DNA of 52,810 nt from Firmicutes bacterium HGW-Firmicutes-4 (GTDB lineage Bacteria; Bacillota; Clostridia; Eubacteriales; Eubacteriaceae): assembly GCA_002841405.1 (NCBI GenBank), contig PGZR01000009.1, forward strand, positions 1 through 52,810. The letters are read 5' to 3'. Made by a program: the position numbers and the translations under genes. Positions 32,514 to 52,810 of this stretch are shown here, piece after piece. The stretch's first letter is position 1. Each line of letters begins with the position of its first letter. Below the pieces are notes generated by a model, which was not told the DNA's origin, searched no databases, and saw only the letters and a list, made by a program, of their open reading frames with translations.

Positions 32514-33243
32514 TTTTAACAACCTCGTTAATTGGCAATCTTTCAAATTCCACAGCCCAGACGAATGGGTTAGCATCCCACCCAAACTGATCAAGGTCTT
32601 TTTTCTTGATGGTGGAGTCCCATAATTTTTCCATTGCTTTCTTGTATTCTCTTGGACAATCTGCCCATTTACAATTCGGGCCATCACCTTCGCTGTCAGC
32701 TGGTGCATATTTTTTCCGCCAGCCATCTTTTGTCCATGCTACTATGCCTTCTTTAAGAGCCTGTTCTTCTGTTATGTCCCGCAACCGCTCCACCCGAACA
32801 TCAGAGACTTTCAGGAAGATTCTGGCCGCTTCTCGGGGCATGTGAATTGATGGTCGCCATCTTCCTTCTGTTGTTGGTAAAGCAATTATTTCTTCAATTA
32901 ATTTAGTTTCACCGCCAGCTTTGTATTCGATAATACATATTCTCGCAATTTGTCGTGCTTCTTCAACTCTCCACGTCTCCCGCACCCAAAGGACATCGCC
33001 AACTTGATATGGTGCTTTCATTTTACTTTTCCCTGTAAAAGGCGCAATTTCACCACCGCATTGCTTACATGCCCATTCATTTCCACCGCTATTAAAGTAG
33101 CCCGGCTTAGTGCAATCATCGTCATAGTGATGATTAGGCTGCGGCTTTACCACCCGCCTTGTCATAGTCTTTCGCCCATCCAGTATCGCCTGTACCATCG
33201 CTGTATTAAACAAAATCGGCTTACTCTTTACATCCCCTTGCAT
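32506..33243 (-). CDS. ASCH-domain phage protein
   Basis: The start MQGDVKSKPILFNTAMVQAILDGRKTMTRRVVKPQP follows GGAGGGGG and lies within the end of thyX. The ILDGRKT-TRR motif, YQVGDVLWVRETW and the C-terminal PFVWAVEFER are the signature of the ASCH/morphogenesis-type phage family, with a four-Cys insertion (CKQC). ASCH domains bind RNA or modified nucleosides; the phage role is unknown. Confidence 0.85.
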   Translation of the reverse strand: MQGDVKSKPILFNTAMVQAILDGRKTMTRRVVKPQPNHHYDDDCTKPGYFNSGGNEWACKQCGGEIAPFTGKSKMKAPYQVGDVLWVRETWRVEEARQIARICIIEYKAGGETKLIEEIIALPTTEGRWRPSIHMPREAARIFLKVSDVRVERLRDITEEQALKEGIVAWTKDGWRKKYAPADSEGDGPNCKWADCPREYKKAMEKLWDSTIKKKDLDQFGWDANPFVWAVEFERLPINEVVKNA

Positions 33244-33929
33244 GATTCCCCCTCCTGGCAACTCATCGACCCCTCTGGGCATTCCCCGCTCACACACGGT
33301 GCACCCGCATTTTTAAACAGAATCGGCGCAACTTGACGGCATTGTGACAGCATTTCATTGGCCATTTCTCTGATTTCCCATTGCGCCCTGTTGCAACATC
33401 TTTTACTGAAAAAATGTAGCAGTATGCGAATGTTCATTGTTACAACGATTGAGGTGGTGCAGGCATTCGGTAATACATAACGTGCATTTTCATAAGCTTC
33501 TTTTTCGCTCAACCCATCAAATATTAATGACTCTACTAAAACGTCATAAGCTTCTTGCGATTCTTGCATTGCTGATTTAAATAATTCCAACGATATTGAT
33601 TTGCTATTTTTTATTACTTCCGGAACAACATAATCAAAATTACCTTCACTCACATATCTCTGGCTTTTCTGGCTATACGACGCTATCCGGTGTCTGACCA
33701 ACTGGTGAGACAACGCTCTACTCACACCATCAATCCCGAATGTAAATGAAGCGTGTTCAAGTGGGCTTTCGTGCCCCATGTTCACTAATTTAGTTAATAG
33801 TTTCTTGATCTGTTCGTCCGTTAAGTTATCCATAATCTCATACGTTGGCACATCGCTATAACATCGTTTCGCAGCAGCAGCCACTAATTTTTCTGGGTTT
33901 GGTGTATGTTCTAATATTTTTACTTGCAT
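33228..33929 (-). CDS. thyX: FAD-dependent thymidylate synthase ThyX
   Basis: The 233-residue enzyme makes dTMP from dUMP with FAD, NADPH and methylene-THF. The ThyX motif RHRIASYSQKSQRY lies at 79-92. H53 and E54 of MGHESPLEHASFTF belong to the substrate site. Phages carry it to raise the dTMP supply. It overlaps the ASCH gene by 16 bases. Confidence 0.95.
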   Translation of the reverse strand: MQVKILEHTPNPEKLVAAAAKRCYSDVPTYEIMDNLTDEQIKKLLTKLVNMGHESPLEHASFTFGIDGVSRALSHQLVRHRIASYSQKSQRYVSEGNFDYVVPEVIKNSKSISLELFKSAMQESQEAYDVLVESLIFDGLSEKEAYENARYVLPNACTTSIVVTMNIRILLHFFSKRCCNRAQWEIREMANEMLSQCRQVAPILFKNAGAPCVSGECPEGSMSCQEGESCKGM

Positions 33930-34911: not shown

Positions 34912-36372
34912 CTATGAAGCCATAGTTCTTTCGACTTCCACAACATTAGCCAACACCAATTCCCTAGCGAATACCGGTGGTACTGCATTCCCGCACCGCT
35001 TTACCTGTTCCGTTTTCGTGATCTTTTTCCCGTCCGAATCATAGTCGATTATGTAATCCGGTGGAAACCCATTTGCAGTGAATAACTCCCGGGGATCCAG
35101 CATCCTCATTCCAATATCAATAATTTGATAATCAGTGCCGCAAACCGTCACCAGTCCAAATCGATCATGACTTACGACGGTTCCGCACGGTTCTTTTAGA
35201 TCCTGACCAATCCCCTGCCCATAGTATTTAATCAAAAACGCTCTAACTTCTCCCAGATGCCCGGGACCGGCGACTATTGTATTCACTGGATCTCTTGAAT
35301 CCGTCCCGATCATATGGTTATTCATTTGGATGATGTGCGAAGTAATCAAAGCATTGTGATCAATTGCAGTAACAGTAGAAAGTGGATCGTCCAAATCTGA
35401 ACCGGCACCATTATAAGTTCCGCCGTAATGTTTGCATACAAAAGCTTGTATCAATCCATACCTCGGACTTCCATCAATCGTCATGATTGGCTCATTTATC
35501 TTTTGTCCTCTGACTTCATGGCTCAATGTTTCTGAATGGTATTGGATGAGCATTGAAGTTTGATCTTCGATAAAAAACGGATCAGGATTTTCCATGATAA
35601 ATTTCTTTATTCCCCTTGCAATCCGCTCCATGGTCTTATCTGCTAACGGCCTGACTGTGTGCAATCCATGTTTTTCTTTTATTTGTTGCTTTGTATCAAA
35701 TATCGAAGGGCAAGGTTTTGAAAAATCCAGCACATCCGATACCGGGGTATATGGTTTTAGAATCCCCATTGCCACTTCTTTGCTATTCCGGGGGCCGTGG
35801 CTTTTAGTTGGCCACGATATCGGAAGTCCATCACACCGGGAAACCATGAAGAACCGTTTCCGCTTGGTGGGTGCGCCGTAATCAGCCGATATTAATTCTC
35901 TGAATTCTACCTGGTACCCTATTATTTTCAGCTGCTCCACGAAACTATTAAAAGTTTCACCAGTCTTATTTTTATCCGGCTGGTTGTCGTCGCCCAGCGG
36001 CCCCCAGGTTTTAAATTCCTCAACATTTTCCAAGATAATGACTGTTGGCCGTACTTGCATGGCCCATTTAACCGCTACCCATGCAAGGCCCCGGATGTTT
36101 TTATCTTTTGGTTTCCCACCCTTGGCTTTTGAAAAATGAGTACAATCGGGGCTAAACCACGCTAGATCAACCGGACGGCCTTCGCAGGCTTTAATCGGGT
36201 CAACATCCCACACACTTTCGCAATAATGCTTTGTATGCGGATGATTTACTTTGTGCATTGCAATTGCCCCGGGATCGTGATTGATCGCAATATCAACCGG
36301 TCTGCCCATGGCTTGCTCAATTCCCTCGGAGGCTCCGCCGCCTCCTGCAAAGTTGTCAATAATCAATCCCAT
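34912..36372 (-). CDS. DNA cytosine-5 methyltransferase
   Basis: Start MGLIIDNFAGGGGASEG at 36372 follows AAGGAGTGG. Motif I is DNFAGGGGAS. Motif IV has SPDC (C77 catalytic) where most enzymes have PPC. Motif VI is LENVEEF (E115). Motif VIII is KRKRFFMVSR, and the C-terminus has motif X (CGNAVPPVFAREL). A target-recognition stretch with duplicated sections (MTIDGSPRYGLIQAF, VNTIVAGPGHLGEVRAF, CGTVVSHDRFGLV) lies at about 280-440. No restriction partner is adjacent, so it probably protects phage DNA. Confidence 0.93.
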   Translation of the reverse strand: MGLIIDNFAGGGGASEGIEQAMGRPVDIAINHDPGAIAMHKVNHPHTKHYCESVWDVDPIKACEGRPVDLAWFSPDCTHFSKAKGGKPKDKNIRGLAWVAVKWAMQVRPTVIILENVEEFKTWGPLGDDNQPDKNKTGETFNSFVEQLKIIGYQVEFRELISADYGAPTKRKRFFMVSRCDGLPISWPTKSHGPRNSKEVAMGILKPYTPVSDVLDFSKPCPSIFDTKQQIKEKHGLHTVRPLADKTMERIARGIKKFIMENPDPFFIEDQTSMLIQYHSETLSHEVRGQKINEPIMTIDGSPRYGLIQAFVCKHYGGTYNGAGSDLDDPLSTVTAIDHNALITSHIIQMNNHMIGTDSRDPVNTIVAGPGHLGEVRAFLIKYYGQGIGQDLKEPCGTVVSHDRFGLVTVCGTDYQIIDIGMRMLDPRELFTANGFPPDYIIDYDSDGKKITKTEQVKRCGNAVPPVFARELVLANVVEVERTMAS

Positions 36373-36467
36373 ATACCACTCCTTATCGCTTCGCGTTTCA
36401 AGCAACGAAACATACAAATTCTTATATCGCCCGTATAGTTCTGGCATGTCTCGCAAATAATGTTCAT
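36363..36467 (-). CDS. Tiny Cys-rich protein, 34 residues
   Basis: MNIICETCQNYTGDIRICMF contains CETC plus two later Cys, a mini zinc knuckle. Its ATG overlaps the upstream stop (ATGA) and its end overlaps the methyltransferase start. Both overlaps are typical of real phage micro-genes. Confidence 0.5.
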   Translation of the reverse strand: MNIICETCQNYTGDIRICMFRCLKREAIRSGIWD

Positions 36468-42593: not shown

Positions 42594-43544
42594 CTACACC
42601 TCATCATAAAAATCATCATCTTCAGGAGCTGGGAGCGGATCTGGCTCGTCTGTCGCCGGAAGACTTTTGTCAACAACTGGTTCAACATCGGGGGGTTGGT
42701 CATTATCGACGTATTGATATCCTGTTTCCGTAATTACCGCCATATCTCTTTCGTGCGCCGTTTGCATTTCAATTGACATGATTCCCCACTTTGAAATCAA
42801 TTGTCTAAGCATTGTCTTGTATGCCATCCCGTCGAAATCCTTATACCAGAAAGACGAGTAAAGCCATAAATCACTATCTTTCACATTCCCGGCTTCATAG
42901 TCTTCAAAAGATACTTTGTTGTATCTCGGGTCTCTAGCCTTGACCGGGTCCTTGCTAAAAGCTTGGCTATATTTGTCGGCGTGAGCAATCATTTTAGCTT
43001 TACTCCAGTACATTGCTTTTTTAAATCCATTCTCATACTCAAACATAGCGTAATATCCAATTGTCGGGGTGTTTTCTCGGTCTTCTTCGTCTTCTATGAG
43101 TTGGACTTCAATTTCTTCTTCAAGGGGGTTAAAACTAATTAATTCACCCTCTTTGATGGACAATACATTGAGTTTTCGATAATACCCTGATCGGATCGCT
43201 AGCTGGATATAGCCCTTGTAACCCAATAAAAACTGAGCTGTTACACTGGCGACGTTTCCGTTTTTATCTTTCTTTTTAAATGGAACCATGTAATACTGCC
43301 CCAATTGAGGGCTGGGAGATAACTTAAGACTTTCCCCCAGCATCGCAGCCGATAAAATTGATCCTTGGTCACATTCTGCCAATGCCGGATTGGTGCTGAC
43401 CGCCGATATAATTGAGGTAATAAACCGTTGCCCATCCTTGCCGCCGACGACCTCATTTATTTTTCTTTTCACACCATCCCCGGTCATGAAATTTGAAAAT
43501 GTATCACTTGTCGGTTTTTTCTGTAAGCTGTTGTTAACTGCCAT
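42594..43544 (-). CDS. recT: RecT-family single-strand annealing protein
   Basis: The 316-residue protein has the RecT body: KRKINEVVGGKDGQRFITSIISAVSTNPALAECDQGSILSAAMLGESLKLSPSPQLGQYYMVPF and FLLGYKGYIQLAIRSGYYRKLNV. It anneals complementary single strands together with the YqaJ exonuclease. The C-terminus is acidic and proline-rich (DQPPDVEPVVDKSLPATDEPDPLPAPEDDD), likely for binding SSB or exonuclease. Confidence 0.95.
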   Translation of the reverse strand: MAVNNSLQKKPTSDTFSNFMTGDGVKRKINEVVGGKDGQRFITSIISAVSTNPALAECDQGSILSAAMLGESLKLSPSPQLGQYYMVPFKKKDKNGNVASVTAQFLLGYKGYIQLAIRSGYYRKLNVLSIKEGELISFNPLEEEIEVQLIEDEEDRENTPTIGYYAMFEYENGFKKAMYWSKAKMIAHADKYSQAFSKDPVKARDPRYNKVSFEDYEAGNVKDSDLWLYSSFWYKDFDGMAYKTMLRQLISKWGIMSIEMQTAHERDMAVITETGYQYVDNDQPPDVEPVVDKSLPATDEPDPLPAPEDDDFYDEV

Positions 43545-47177: not shown

Positions 47178-47360
47178 TTATGCACTTTTGTCTTCCTTTG
47201 CATTTTTCATTACTTCGTCATACGGGATAACGAATGCGGCGATGTTTAGATCTCTCTCAGCCGCTTCTCTAATCTGCTCTTTGGTAAAAAGCCCAAACCT
47301 TTCGAGCGTCTTTTTTCTGACCTCCACATCAACCCCGAGCGAATAATCTTTCTCCTTCAT
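47178..47360 (-). CDS. Small helical protein, 60 residues
   Basis: MKEKDYSLGVDVEVRKKTLERFGLFTKEQIREAAERDLNIAAFVIP is charged and helical. The start follows GGAGG and overlaps the end of the upstream regulator by 32 bases. Function unknown. Confidence 0.55.
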   Translation of the reverse strand: MKEKDYSLGVDVEVRKKTLERFGLFTKEQIREAAERDLNIAAFVIPYDEVMKNAKEDKSA

Positions 47361-47898
47361 AACTTGATGGCCTCCTTTCGTTCATGATCATTCCGCTTTT
47401 AAAATGTAGTTTTTTTGTTTTGTGTTGTTTCTTCACGGGTGTTTTTTCAAGCGTGGAAAAGACCAGGCTCAAACTCGACATCGCGCTTTCCATCAACTCT
47501 TTTAGAAAAAGCCCGGATACTTCCAGTTCATGATCATCAATCCGATTATCCAAGATCACTTTTCTCATCCTGTTCTCAAGCTCATGAACTTCCTCTGTTT
47601 CTGATTGAAATTTAATGAATGCGGTGGGTAGATCTAGCAGCTCTACATTAGAGAAAATCGATCTGAAAATCAGGTTCGTCTCATTTAAGAACAGAATTTT
47701 CATGTAATCACTCTGATATAGTTCTGCCATTTTTAGTACCGTTTCTTCCGGTGGTAGGTGTTTCCGAACCTCCAGCGAATAAGATTCATAATTTGACAGC
47801 GTATGGACTGACAAACATAACTCACAGGCCGCTTCTTCCTGGGTATATCCTGCACGTTCTCTGAACGTCTTTAACACCCCTTTGCACTTTTCGTTCAT
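47329..47898 (-). CDS. XRE-type regulator with long helical C-terminus
   Basis: The 189 residues start with a helix-turn-helix (VLKTFRERAGYTQEEAACELCLSVHTLSNYE). The C-terminal part is helical (ETEEVHELENRMRKVILDNRIDDHELEVSGLFLKELMESAMSSL). It is the third HTH protein of the early region and probably controls replication genes. Position downstream of Rha agrees with an early regulator. Confidence 0.7.
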   Translation of the reverse strand: MNEKCKGVLKTFRERAGYTQEEAACELCLSVHTLSNYESYSLEVRKHLPPEETVLKMAELYQSDYMKILFLNETNLIFRSIFSNVELLDLPTAFIKFQSETEEVHELENRMRKVILDNRIDDHELEVSGLFLKELMESAMSSLSLVFSTLEKTPVKKQHKTKKLHFKSGMIMNERRPSSYEGERLFARG

Positions 47899-49754: not shown

Positions 49755-49991
49755 CTAGCTTGCTTTTGGTTTTTTAGCTTGATTTTCCGTGGTGGAAAGT
49801 TCGTCGCTAAAAAAAACTAATTCAATCGGTTCTCCGAGTTTATCGGCTATTATTTTAGCTTCATCAATCGTGATTCTAATACTGCCACTTTCCTTTTTAT
49901 AGTAAGCCGCCTCTGTTTTCAAACCCAACGCCGCCGCCATATCCATCGCCGATATTTTTTTGCTCGTTCTAATTTCTCTTAAATTTCTCAC
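49755..49991 (-). CDS. Cro-like XRE regulator
   Basis: The 78 residues form an XRE domain (LREIRTSKKISAMDMAAALGLKTEAAYYKKESGSIRITIDEAKIIADKLG). It is the first gene of the minus-strand early operon, divergent from the repressor. The recognition helix probably binds the four operators between them. Confidence 0.88.
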   Translation of the reverse strand: MRNLREIRTSKKISAMDMAAALGLKTEAAYYKKESGSIRITIDEAKIIADKLGEPIELVFFSDELSTTENQAKKPKAS

Positions 49992-50020: not shown

Positions 50021-50136
50021 TTTCCATCATGGAATATTTATAAACTCATTATACTTTCCACCATGGATAATGTCAACGCTTTTTTTAAAATATTTTTTCC
50101 ACATTGGATACATCCGTTGTTTTTCCATATTGGATA
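50021..50136. repeat. Four operator copies in the immunity switch
   Basis: Copies at 50021-50035 (TTTCCATCATGGAAT), 50055-50069 (TTTCCACCATGGATA), 50096-50110 (TTTCCACATTGGATA) and 50122-50136 (TTTCCATATTGGATA) follow the palindrome TTTCCA-N3-TGGAtA. They are spaced 34, 41 and 26 bases apart. Copy 2 fills the spacer of the early promoter and copy 4 that of the repressor promoter. Confidence 0.85.
50048..50076 (-). promoter_or_regulatory. Early lytic promoter
   Basis: On the minus strand TTGACA (50076-50071), a 17-base spacer and TATAAT (50053-50048) form a consensus sigma-A promoter. Operator copy 2 lies wholly inside the spacer, so bound repressor would shut it off. It drives the Cro-like gene. 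Confidence 0.88.
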
Positions 50137-50168: not shown

Positions 50169-50570
50169 ATGAATAGAATAAAAGAACTAAGAATAAAAAA
50201 AGGAATTACACAAGCCGAACTTGCTAAGAAAATCGGTGTACAAGGTGCTGCTATTTCGAAATATGAAAACGAGCAACTTCAAATATCAAACGAGGTTTTG
50301 AAGTCATTGGCTTTAATATTTGAGGTATCCATCGATTATATTCTTTGTCTAACCGACGACCCCATCCCTTCCCGTGACGTCAACCAGGATCTTTACGACG
50401 AACACGATTACGCAAAAGAACTGGAAGCACTGCTGGACGACGAACCGCTTCGAACAGAATTTCAGGATTACGACGAATGGTCCGAAGAAGAAAAAAGAAA
50501 TCTTGATTTTATTGAAAGTCTGACATATGTCAAAAAAATCAAATCTACAGGAGGAAAACATGAGTTTTGA
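50169..50570 (+). CDS. XRE-family phage repressor
   Basis: The N-terminal 65 residues are an XRE HTH (RIKELRIKKGITQAELAKKIGVQGAAISKYENEQLQISNEVLKSLALIFEVS). The acidic C-terminal half (DEHDYAKELEALLDDEPLRTEFQDYDEWSEEEKRNLDFI) lacks the S24/LexA peptidase of lambda-type repressors. It therefore cannot cleave itself, which fits removal by an ImmA-type protease. It overlaps the HsdR-N gene by 11 bases. Confidence 0.9.
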   Translation: MNRIKELRIKKGITQAELAKKIGVQGAAISKYENEQLQISNEVLKSLALIFEVSIDYILCLTDDPIPSRDVNQDLYDEHDYAKELEALLDDEPLRTEFQDYDEWSEEEKRNLDFIESLTYVKKIKSTGGKHEF

Positions 50571-51636
50571 GGAGAAGTTGAGAGAGTTTATTGAGCGAGT
50601 AAAAAAGACAAAGGACAACATTGCAACGGAAGAAGCCACAAAGACTTCTGTAATAATGCCGTTCTTCCAGATCCTTGGTTATGATGTATTCAACCCGACG
50701 GAATTTATACCAGAATACACAGCTGACGTTGGCATTAAAAAAGGCGAAAAAGTGGATTATGCAATCCTTTTAAATGGAGAACTTACCTTACTCATTGAAG
50801 CTAAATCGATCAATGAGCAGTTAGAAAAACATGACTCCCAATTGTTCCGCTACTTTGGGACAACGGCGGCAAAATTTGCAATATTAACGAATGGTCTTAT
50901 TTATCGGTTCTACAGTGACCTGGATGAGCAAAATAAAATGGACAGTTCCCCATTTTTCGAAATTAATTTGCTTGATATCAGCGACAGTGAAATAATTGAA
51001 CTCAAAAAGTTCTGCAAAGAAAACTTTGACCTGAGCATGATCTTAGATACCGCTTCGGAGCTCAAGTACCTCGGTTTAATCAAGAAAGTCTTGAAAGATG
51101 AGTTTTCAAATCCATCCGATGATTTTATCCGTTTTATTTTAACCCAGGGCGTATACGACGGAATGAAGACTCAAAACACTGTCGATAAATACCGGCCCAC
51201 TGTGAAGAAATCAATATCCCAGTATATTAATGAGCTGGTCAATGACAAAATTCAGAACGCATTAAAAAGCGATGAATCGTTTGAACCCAAGGCCATTCAA
51301 CAGTTTGAAGAAGTTGATGAATCCGCTCTAATCGCAAGTGTTTCCAATATCATTACTACGGACGAAGAAATCGAGTGCTTTTTCATTGTAAAGTCGATCC
51401 TGCATAATGCTGTTGATTTAAACCGGATCGGGTACAAGGACACGGCTAGCTACTTCTCGATTATTATTGACGGGAAAGTTACTAAGTGGATTTGTCGCAT
51501 ATTCTTGAAAGAGAATACGAAATATATCATTATTCCGAATGGTGATGCCAATGAAAAGATTGTCTTAGATAAACTAGACGATATATATGCCTATACCGAC
51601 CAGCTAGTCGCGCGCCTAAACAACCTGATCGGTTGA
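50560..51636 (+). CDS. Solitary HsdR-N-type nuclease-fold protein in the lysogeny operon
   Basis: Start MSFEEKLREFIERVKKTKDNIATEEATKTSVIMPFF at 50560 follows AGGAGG. Residues 1-150 match the type I restriction HsdR N-terminal domain, with E24/E25, D66 (KVDYAIL), E80 and K82 (LIEAKS) of the PD-(D/E)XK site all present. The rest (VDKYRPTVKKSISQYINELVNDKIQNAL ... YSIIIDGKVTKWICRIFLKENTKYIIIPNG) resembles a second conserved domain of such stand-alone proteins. No HsdM, HsdS or helicase part is present. Overlap with the repressor shows expression in the lysogen; an exclusion role is inference. Confidence 0.85.
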   Translation: MSFEEKLREFIERVKKTKDNIATEEATKTSVIMPFFQILGYDVFNPTEFIPEYTADVGIKKGEKVDYAILLNGELTLLIEAKSINEQLEKHDSQLFRYFGTTAAKFAILTNGLIYRFYSDLDEQNKMDSSPFFEINLLDISDSEIIELKKFCKENFDLSMILDTASELKYLGLIKKVLKDEFSNPSDDFIRFILTQGVYDGMKTQNTVDKYRPTVKKSISQYINELVNDKIQNALKSDESFEPKAIQQFEEVDESALIASVSNIITTDEEIECFFIVKSILHNAVDLNRIGYKDTASYFSIIIDGKVTKWICRIFLKENTKYIIIPNGDANEKIVLDKLDDIYAYTDQLVARLNNLIG

Positions 51637-51798: not shown

Positions 51799-52341
51799 AT
51801 GAAAAGAAATCTATCACTTATTTTAATGTCGGTCTTGGTTGTGGCTCTTATTGCTGGATGCAGCGCCAGTGGTGGCGGGACCACTGCGGCTGAAACAAAA
51901 CCGAAAGTTGATGTAACGAAAATGTCTGCCGAGGAAATTGTTAAGACCTTCCAAGATGCTGGGTTCCCCATTGAGAATGTTCAAGTTTTAACGGCCGAAA
52001 CCGATAAGGGAGAATTGCTGGGCCGCCCCAATCAGTATACAAGCAAGGCGATATTTGAAGATGCTCGGTCTAACAGTCCGGCAGCCGGATCGGCTACAGA
52101 AGGAACGGCTGGCGGATCGATTGAAGTATTCAAAAATTCCGAAGATGCTCAAGCGAGGTATGATTATATCCAACCAATAACTGAAAATGCAATGTTTTCC
52201 CAGTACCTATACTTATATGAGAATGTATTCCTGAGAATCGACGGAGCGCTAACGCCTGATCAAGCCGCTCAATATGAAACGGCATTTAAATCACTGCAAA
52301 ATGGCGATCTTCCAGAACAATTTTCTGAAACTGCAAAGTAA
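51799..52341 (+). CDS. Secreted lipoprotein
   Basis: Signal peptide with lipobox LIAGC (Cys at residue 21), then a Gly/Ser/Thr-rich linker and a soluble domain (MSAEEIVKTFQDAGFPIENVQVLTAETDKGELLGRPNQYTSKAIFED ... YLYENVFLRIDGALTPDQAAQYETAFKSL). Family not recognised. It could be a phage-encoded superinfection-exclusion lipoprotein or a host gene at the boundary. It has its own promoter and terminator. Confidence 0.75.
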   Translation: MKRNLSLILMSVLVVALIAGCSASGGGTTAAETKPKVDVTKMSAEEIVKTFQDAGFPIENVQVLTAETDKGELLGRPNQYTSKAIFEDARSNSPAAGSATEGTAGGSIEVFKNSEDAQARYDYIQPITENAMFSQYLYLYENVFLRIDGALTPDQAAQYETAFKSLQNGDLPEQFSETAK

Positions 52342-52376
52342 TATTTAACATCTGCTAATAATAACCATATTTTACC

Positions 52377-52396
52377 CGGGGAGATCCTTCTCCCCG
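52377..52396 (+). terminator. Hairpin terminator after the lipoprotein gene
   Basis: CGGGGAGA-TCCT-TCTCCCCG is a perfect 8-bp stem. The following T content is loose (CCTTCCCCCTT), so termination may be moderate. Confidence 0.65.
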
Positions 52397-52463
52397 CCTT
52401 CCCCCTTAATCTTCTTCACAATTTTTTACTCTAAATTATTCACTGCTACCTCTGATTTTCTGC

Positions 52464-52486
52464 TACAATAAAAGAACACACGTTCT
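52464..52486 (+). promoter_or_regulatory. Promoter with LexA box before the ImmA gene
   Basis: TACAAT (52464-52469) is followed 4 bases later by AGAACACACGTTCT (52473-52486). This is a perfect dyad matching 12 of 14 positions of the Gram-positive LexA consensus CGAACRNRYGTTYG. It covers the expected start of transcription. Confidence 0.78.
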
Positions 52487-52520
52487 ATTTTTCATTGCAT
52501 TGATAAACGGAGGTTAAACA

Positions 52521-52810
52521 TTGTATAAAATGACACAGAAACATGTAATAAAAACACTAAACAAATATCCTATTTTGACACTGCCGGTCCCAATTCACGC
52601 CATAGAAGAAATCATTACCGATAAAGGTTACTCCCTAATAAATTGCTCGGAGATCAATAGGCCATGCATTTTTAGAAAAGAGCTTATTTTGCCACGTTTT
52701 GAAACAATCTCAGATCAAAGATTTGCCTTGGCGCATGAGCTTGGCCATATTGTTTCCCACGGACGACAAAAGACCGCAATCGATACCCCTGGAAAGCACG
52801 AAGCCTCAGC
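52521..52810 (+). CDS. ImmA/IrrE-family metallopeptidase, N-terminal part
   Basis: The gene is cut by the right edge after 96 codons. The zinc motif HELGHI is preceded by QRFALA, the usual F-x-x-AHELGH context. GGAGG precedes a TTG (52521); an ATG in frame (52530) is the alternative. Proteins of this family cleave XRE repressors in integrative elements (ImmA of ICEBs1) and in radiation-response systems. With the peptidase-less repressor nearby and a LexA box in front, I infer a role in prophage induction. Confidence 0.85.
   Translation, partial: MYKMTQKHVIKTLNKYPILTLPVPIHAIEEIITDKGYSLINCSEINRPCIFRKELILPRFETISDQRFALAHELGHIVSHGRQKTAIDTPGKHEAS

Follow-up and report, generated by a model that had tools for sequence, protein, structure and literature searches.

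How could a prophage whose repressor appears unable to cut itself be induced by DNA damage? This question arises at the right end of contig PGZR01000009.1 of Firmicutes bacterium HGW-Firmicutes-4 (assembly GCA_002841405.1), where an immA-like protease gene begins just behind a match to the operator of LexA, the SOS repressor. The window analyzed here is this entire contig (C160; 52,810 nucleotides). We propose that the locus is the induction switch of an integrated temperate phage of an Acetobacterium-type host, in which host LexA would control an immA-integrase (immA-int) operon and ImmA would cut the phage repressor. On the sequence evidence, we put the probability of this reading at about 77%. 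An initial annotation had suggested the same protease-repressor circuit, and the comparisons described below support it.

The following elements were read at the start of immA.

52461-52469, + strand: extended -10 (TGC TACAAT) of the immA promoter, read from the sequence
52474-52485, no strand: LexA box GAACACACGTTC, exact GAACN4GTTC, over the expected transcription start
52509-52513, + strand: ribosome-binding site GGAGG of immA, read from the sequence
52521-52810, + strand: first 96 codons of the immA-like M78 metalloprotease gene, TTG start, running off the window into contig C189

The box, GAACACACGTTC, is the sole exact GAACN4GTTC in the 52.8-kb window, where 0.5 would be expected (20 Markov-1 versions). 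The initial annotation had called it near-perfect; it is a perfect GAAC-N4-GTTC. The promoter start given there, 52464, is also correct, as the -10-like hexamer TACAAT occupies 52464-52469, with TGC directly 5′ of it. Since this -10 ends at 52469, transcription should start within the box, and bound LexA would block it. A convincing -35 is lacking and a strict sigma-70 scan did not list the promoter, so it was read by eye from its -10. The sequence directly 5′ of the box, TGCTACAAT, is also found at loci L034-L039.

The host genome encodes one LexA (LexA_DNA_bind, 70.4 bits), and by our reading lexA has a one-mismatch box. The 3.73-Mb genome contains 27 exact GAACN4GTTC boxes (19 for the reversed pattern, used as a control), 16 of which lie within open reading frames (ORFs) of at least 150 amino acids. 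Seven of the other 11 are within 60 bp of a start: those at recA, uvrB, dinB, a sigma-factor-like gene, the window immA and, twice, a second, different immA on contig C175. These genes were identified by Pfam, except that the name uvrB is our own reading, since the contig end cuts this gene and Pfam shows only its helicase part. The immA box matches the host SOS operator at recA, uvrB, and dinB, which by motif makes immA a predicted member of the LexA regulon. LexA of Bacillus subtilis recognizes this box too.

The box is also conserved in relatives. ImmA query matches were found in 18 of 67 genomes of the order, and in wider searches 12 of 391 genomes had a match at class level and 9 of 398 at phylum level, both counts including the window genome. 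Five viral contigs encode an ImmA at least 93% identical to the window's, a search of genome contigs gave eight loci, L066 and the weak match L070 among them, and tblastn against a phage collection returned only two weak partial ImmA matches. Among 40 distinct proteins, 20 scored above 180 bits to the family profile. An exact box lies within 100 bp upstream of 18 of these 20 relatives, and a box with at most one mismatch is present in all 20; the box is kept even at immA promoters of relatives with an ImmA identity of only 29-43%. When these 100-bp tracts were replaced by Markov-1 versions, 7 of 10,000 held an exact box. In nine of the 20 family members a pair of boxes, each exact or off by one base, surrounds the -10, a count that omits a third kind of one-mismatch match over the ribosome-binding site, and the second immA on C175 has two exact boxes. 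The remaining 20 proteins comprise the truncated window copy, with its exact box, and 19 lower-scoring proteins that have no exact box and, in three cases (L080, L081, and L090), a one-mismatch site. Exact duplicates (L034 and L036 among them) were dropped from the 20 relatives, which include L035, L037, and L038, all at least 93% identical to the window's protein. A1, and hence the 180-bit split, was drawn up after the boxes had been seen, with L050 and L053-L056 left out. The ImmA protein of L066, a locus on a contig labelled Ignavibacteriae, is the same as that of the second immA in the window genome; the label is likely a binning error.

As controls, we used 89 other clostridial M78 genes. 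They derive from 90 loci (L192 had no ORF), 30 chosen automatically and 60 picked by hand before their sequence was seen; the hand-picked loci were taken mostly in E-value order, mostly as shorter frames, among the matches listed, with family members left out. None of these controls had an exact box and six had a one-mismatch box, over longer tracts (Fisher P 1e-18, family versus controls, a test that ignores relatedness). Fifty-eight of the 89 lie within 120 bp of a helix-turn-helix (HTH) gene, five are fused to an HTH, five have an HTH farther away, and 21 have none seen, which gives a lower bound on neighbors, since the HTH and integrase models were built from this family. L076/L110 has the classical repressor-immA order and no box.

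The window immA continues to position 253 of C189 and encodes a full-length protein of 147 amino acids. Its window part scores 21.5 bits to Peptidase_M78 (PF06114), just below the Pfam cut-off of 22; the C189 continuation scores 45.6 bits and the second immA of the genome 54.1 bits. The HExxH motif (H72, E73, and H76) and a downstream glutamate (E94) are invariant in 21 aligned ImmA proteins. For an AlphaFold2 model (predicted local distance difference test 88.9), the 11 best Foldseek matches were to CapP, a mycobacterial regulator, IrrE, and PprI (TMq 0.64-0.76), with 7t5t, 3dti, 8slm, and 8sln among the fold matches. A sequence search of the PDB matched only CapP and MJ1213, and NCBIfam gave nothing above its curated cut-off for either ImmA or the repressor. 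No second sensor domain was seen in the model, which forms a single domain of ~147 amino acids. The M78 motif and the predicted IrrE-like fold place this protein in the ImmA/IrrE metalloprotease family, confirming the identity first assigned to it, and point to cutting of the repressor, though ImmA may act by binding only.

Whether an integrase follows past the right edge had been left as a question, and it does. The last 99 bases of the window (52712-52810) are identical to the first 99 bases of C189, where the rest of immA is followed directly by a gene for a large serine integrase (Resolvase, Recombinase, and zinc-ribbon domains; PHROG 95, "integrase"). The IMG/VR viral contig L034, which has the same ImmA protein, is unbroken across immA into the integrase. 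The assembly break inside immA, with its 99-base overlap, may reflect strain variation at the joint. Beyond the integrase, C189 carries cation-efflux, NAD(P)H-hydrate dehydratase, and YebC genes, apparently belonging to the host. At 20 of 21 loci the integrase frame starts 1-69 bases past the beginning of the immA stop codon, and the 21st locus (L111) ends at a contig edge; this spacing suggests that immA and int are on one transcript, with immA first. Nine integrase types, three serine and six tyrosine (Pfam integrase or resolvase/recombinase), are found 3′ of immA, with at most about 30% mutual identity; the tyrosine integrase of L098 is short (248 amino acids). Since such unlike integrases follow immA, the box-immA part appears to have been kept while integrases were exchanged.

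The proposed target of ImmA and the sites through which it would act lie to the left of immA.

50169-50570, + strand: phage repressor, HTH (about residues 1-62) and short C-terminal domain, no S24
50460-50462, + strand: Phe98 codon of the repressor, in the proposed ImmA cleavage region
50021-50035, 50055-50069, 50096-50110, and 50122-50136, no strand: four palindromic candidate operators TTCCANNNTGGAWA, between divergent genes
50048-50076, - strand: candidate lytic promoter TTGACA-17-TATAAT, overlapping an operator, from a promoter scan

The initial annotation held that this repressor lacks an S24 peptidase, and Pfam indeed reports only its HTH. Neither S24 nor another self-cleaving domain appears in the Pfam and NCBIfam output, on which basis self-cleavage was rejected, and S24 was absent from all 10 related repressors scanned. 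The ImmR DNA-binding domain (7t8i) ranks 29th among the repressor's Foldseek matches; these say little about the C-terminal domain, since they are mostly HTH-based with a high whole-chain root-mean-square deviation. The repressor tail is helical in a model of the L034 relative (predicted TM score only 0.51), made from an alignment (A3) that omits L100 and L101. Phe98 lies between helices 81-89 and 106-128 of the repressor model and is conserved in 17 of the 19 repressors aligned. The ImmR cleavage site, F95-M96, also falls in a linker between two helices (PMC8960796; here and below, published systems are described from the available parts of the papers cited). By analogy, we propose that ImmA cuts the repressor near Phe98. 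Of the 19 relatives used, 17 encode a same-type repressor 0.9-3.9 kb 5′ of immA; in the window the gap is 1,953 bp and holds two cargo genes. The operator motif (up to one mismatch) recurs at 49784-49798, and the sequence search found none upstream of immA, on which ground control of immA by the repressor was rejected.

The two proteins also appear to evolve together. We compared 19 repressor-ImmA loci, using permutations without correction for phylogeny and leaving out the window (altered repressor tail; L034 was used instead), L065 (same contig as L111), L096, L107, and L108. The Mantel correlation between the N-terminal half of ImmA (ImmA-N) and the repressor C-terminal domain was 0.67, 0.65, and 0.64 for 19, 17 (L035 and L037 removed), and 15 pairs (L109 and L110 removed too). 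With the C-terminal half (ImmA-C) and the HTH held fixed, partial correlations were 0.59, 0.64, and 0.65 (P 0.0002, the floor of 5000 permutations). ImmA-C gave raw values of 0.39, 0.22, and 0.12 with the same domain, which became negative with ImmA-N fixed. The partial correlation of ImmA-N with the HTH was 0.09-0.11 (P 0.17-0.19), and there was no correlation between the HTH and the C-terminal domain of the same repressor (0.11, 0.02, and -0.09). Since general relatedness would have linked the HTH too, the covariation appears to go beyond shared descent, and because ImmA-N covaries with its C-terminal domain the repressor is the likely ImmA target. The DNA-binding domain, which hardly covaries, would have been freely exchanged independent of ImmA. 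Natural swaps illustrate this pattern. L034 and L035 have ImmA halves 99 and 100% identical and C-terminal domains 100% identical, with HTHs at 41%. Between L099 and L111, ImmA-N (90%) and the C-terminal domain (92%) are alike and ImmA-C and the HTH are each at 47%, and between L099 and L102 only ImmA-C is close (89%; ImmA-N 31%, C-terminal domain 11%). At L060, L061, L097, L111, L104, and L105 immA is mosaic, its N-halves tracking the repressor and its C-halves the integrase, which makes the gene look like a recombination joint. That ImmA acts on another HTH protein (47329-47898 or 49755-49991) is a minor possibility.

In the proposed switch, host LexA on the box at 52474-52485 would keep the immA-integrase operon off in a lysogen, and the HTH repressor encoded at 50169 would shut the leftward lytic promoter through the four operators. 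Upon DNA damage, RecA filaments would trigger LexA self-cleavage, and immA and int would be transcribed. ImmA would cut the repressor C-terminal domain, probably near Phe98, and the repressor would leave the DNA. The lytic genes would then open, and integrase from the same transcript would excise the prophage. We infer LexA binding, damage induction, cleavage, and excision from sequence comparisons. Related phages appear to share the LexA-box immA wiring.

Several observations weigh against this switch or limit its reach. Two relatives, L046 and L049, have only one-mismatch boxes. Nine of the 89 control M78 genes have an integrase within 400 bp and none of these has an exact box; integrase adjacency alone therefore does not bring the box. 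Together with the distant relatives L086, L087, and L089, which have a serine recombinase next door and no box, these controls make the wiring lineage-limited. Across the host genome the motif by itself shows only a mild excess (27 exact boxes; reversed pattern, 19). At L096, L107, and L108 we recognized no such repressor upstream of immA, and the repressor-immA distance is 6.8 kb in L109 (it is 54 bp in L110). Phe98 is replaced by His in L100 and Leu in L101, and the last ~20 residues of the window repressor differ from those of relatives. In the covariation analysis, the raw correlation of ImmA-N with the HTH was 0.25 across all 19 pairs (P 0.005), falling to 0.15 and 0.00 in the smaller sets; the window-type and C175-type modules of the same genome have C-terminal domains 58% identical and ImmA-N only 29%, and in L034 and L094 the values are 50% and 73%. 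LexA control of an integrase that is also required for entry into lysogeny is awkward. Integrase would be scarce while LexA is bound, and leakage, read-through of the repressor operon past a hairpin that lacks a T-run, or SOS triggered by infection could supply it.

Other explanations assign the box a different role. In one, LexA only boosts immA, and ImmA made at a low level is activated post-translationally by a RecA-dependent or single-stranded DNA (ssDNA) signal, as in ICEBs1. ssDNA has been proposed as the activator of pneumococcal ImmAR and reported for PprI (PMC12637031). This account has to contend with a single-domain ImmA of ~147 amino acids modelled without a second sensor domain, and with an immA promoter at which no repressor operator was found, LexA being the sole candidate found to hold immA off. 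Small size is no argument against activation, given that ICEBs1 ImmA is small too, and we consider a booster role unlikely, though a serious contender. The box could instead serve the integrase, tying excision to damage, with ImmA a passenger or acting on the Cro-like or a host protein. An integrase is indeed 3′ of immA at 20 of 21 loci, the remaining one being cut, and SOS control of integron integrases is known (PMC3323433, PMC3375312). Yet the repressor C-terminal domain, although encoded kilobases from immA, is tracked more closely by ImmA-N than by the HTH of the same protein, and HExxH is invariant in 21 proteins; we hold this explanation to be very improbable.

We give almost no weight to the box being a match by chance or an operator of some other regulator. 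The mild genomic excess (27 exact versus 19 reversed) and the 16 of 27 boxes within long ORFs would fit such a match, but all 20 relatives have a box with at most one mismatch, nine of them have two around the -10, and the same motif stands at recA, uvrB, and dinB; a chance match was rejected on the conservation in relatives and the controls. More room, if still at poor odds, is left for a degenerate prophage whose altered repressor tail makes it no longer inducible in its host. From 46.7 kb to its right end (46.7-52.8 kb) the window is identical to L034, except for missing stretches of 58 bases at about 48433 and 88 bases at about 50504, the second of which alters the repressor tail. These stretches may be truly missing or an assembly effect. 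Degeneracy is countered by an HTH, Phe98 region, operators, immA, and integrase that all read through, by the possibility that the gaps are assembly artifacts, and by the intact repressor copies in relatives, on which the general claim rests.

A further reading of the proposed LexA-controlled protease concerns how these modules evolve. By eye, the family sorts into five ImmA-N/C-terminal-domain groups. Genome G036 holds four such modules. Two of group 3, L098 and L102, are 84% identical in ImmA-N, 61% in the C-terminal domain, and 52% in the HTH. ImmA-N and the C-terminal domain may be interchangeable lock-and-key pairs, shuffled apart from the HTH and integrase. Since damage sensing would be handed to LexA, the protease would need no activation of its own, and heteroimmune prophages sharing a key (such as L098 and L102) would be co-induced by either protease. 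We offer this idea tentatively, at a little less than even odds.

ImmA-type proteases are known together with their repressors from ICEBs1, Listeria, pneumococcus, and Clostridium clostridioforme (PMC11841131, PMC8960796, PMC6872733, PMC12637031, PMC11318856). Like ImmR/ImmA of ICEBs1 (Bacillus subtilis), the system described here combines a small HTH repressor with a helical C-terminal domain and an ImmA-type antirepressor, and int adjoins immA (PMC8960796, PMC11841131). The ICEBs1 promoter PimmR, itself controlled by ImmR, drives int, immA, and immR, and either the damage response or RapI activates ImmA (PMC8960796, PMC11841131). Here, in contrast, immA is not immediately 3′ of the repressor in one operon; immA-int has its own LexA-box promoter, 2 kb from the repressor and without an operator-like site. 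The initial annotation had envisaged a separate LexA-controlled protease gene as a wiring different from that of ICEBs1. The separate promoter and the distance from the repressor agree with this view; the protease is not alone, however: the spacing suggests an operon in which immA comes first and the integrase gene follows.

MpaR, of the Listeria monocin element and A118-type phages, is likewise an ImmA-type protease paired with a CI-like repressor that has no peptidase domain, and it cuts CI-like repressors, including that of a second prophage (PMC6872733). Unlike immA here, mpaR is found together with the gene of the repressor that controls it; the available text of PMC6872733 names no LexA box at mpaR, and "sos box" has no occurrence in its main text. 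Antirepressor genes under direct LexA control include Tum (coliphage 186), AntC (N15), and GfoA/GfhA (Gifsy); the Gifsy antirepressor is encoded outside the immunity region, and one antirepressor can act on heteroimmune repressors (PMC3121763). The immA described here resembles them in being a LexA-box gene 2 kb from the immunity region, paired with a repressor without a self-cleaving domain. GfoA, GftA, and Tum bind the repressor without cutting it (PMC3121763), whereas the product here is a metalloprotease by motif and predicted fold, and an integrase follows. IrrE/PprI, which acts with DdrO, and CapP share the protease fold of this ImmA, and IrrE cuts a repressor after damage; the chains of IrrE/PprI and CapP, at 240-291 residues in the PDB, exceed the 147 amino acids of the protein here. 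The activators named for IrrE/PprI are ssDNA (PMC12637031) or, in abstracts, zinc. The available parts of the literature searched (PMC2701414 and PMC8072749 included) contained no ImmA gene under LexA, a search with subscription papers mostly outside its scope.

Other features of the region are as follows.

49755-49991, - strand: Cro-like HTH gene, the first leftward gene
50527-51636, + strand: HSDR_N-type nuclease-like cargo gene (PHROG 4225, "endonuclease"), between the repressor and immA
51799-52341, + strand: small lipoprotein-like cargo gene (weak PHROG 8870 match; lipoprotein is our reading of the signal sequence)
52377-52396, + strand: 8-bp G+C-rich hairpin between the cargo gene and the immA promoter (-15.5 kcal/mol over 52355-52425)

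The hairpin is a possible terminator, though it has no T-run; a terminator scan found no terminator, this hairpin included. The prophage also carries ThyX (33228-33929), a DNA methyltransferase (34912-36456), and RecT (42594-43544). Two one-mismatch LexA-like boxes flank TATATA (2424-2452) 5′ of an 82-amino-acid gene (ORF 2159-2407, - strand), a host homolog of which lies directly 3′ of dinB on contig C111 of the same genome. This double box is present in 8 of 32 copies read (L202, L203, and L226-L231, with L226 having the L202 sequence); among the remaining 24, a lone one-mismatch site is present in two and absent from 22. The 82-amino-acid gene is perhaps a second SOS gene of the phage. Elsewhere in the host genome, an exact box (L004, G000 C3:11422-11433) lies 25 bp 5′ of a gene for a 192-amino-acid sigma-70-type factor, which we take to resemble SOS-controlled sigma factors such as UviA of Clostridium perfringens.

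We rate the predicted LexA-controlled antirepressor built from an ImmA protease as a new variant. The natural domain swaps provide ready matched and mismatched protease-repressor pairs for tests of recognition and cross-induction in acetogens or Escherichia coli. The arrangement would join two known classes, the LexA-controlled antirepressors of enteric phages and the ImmA proteases of Gram-positive elements. In ICEBs1-like systems, ImmA action after damage is described as activation of a protein made together with the repressor. This phage group appears to use transcription, with LexA holding the protease and integrase off together.
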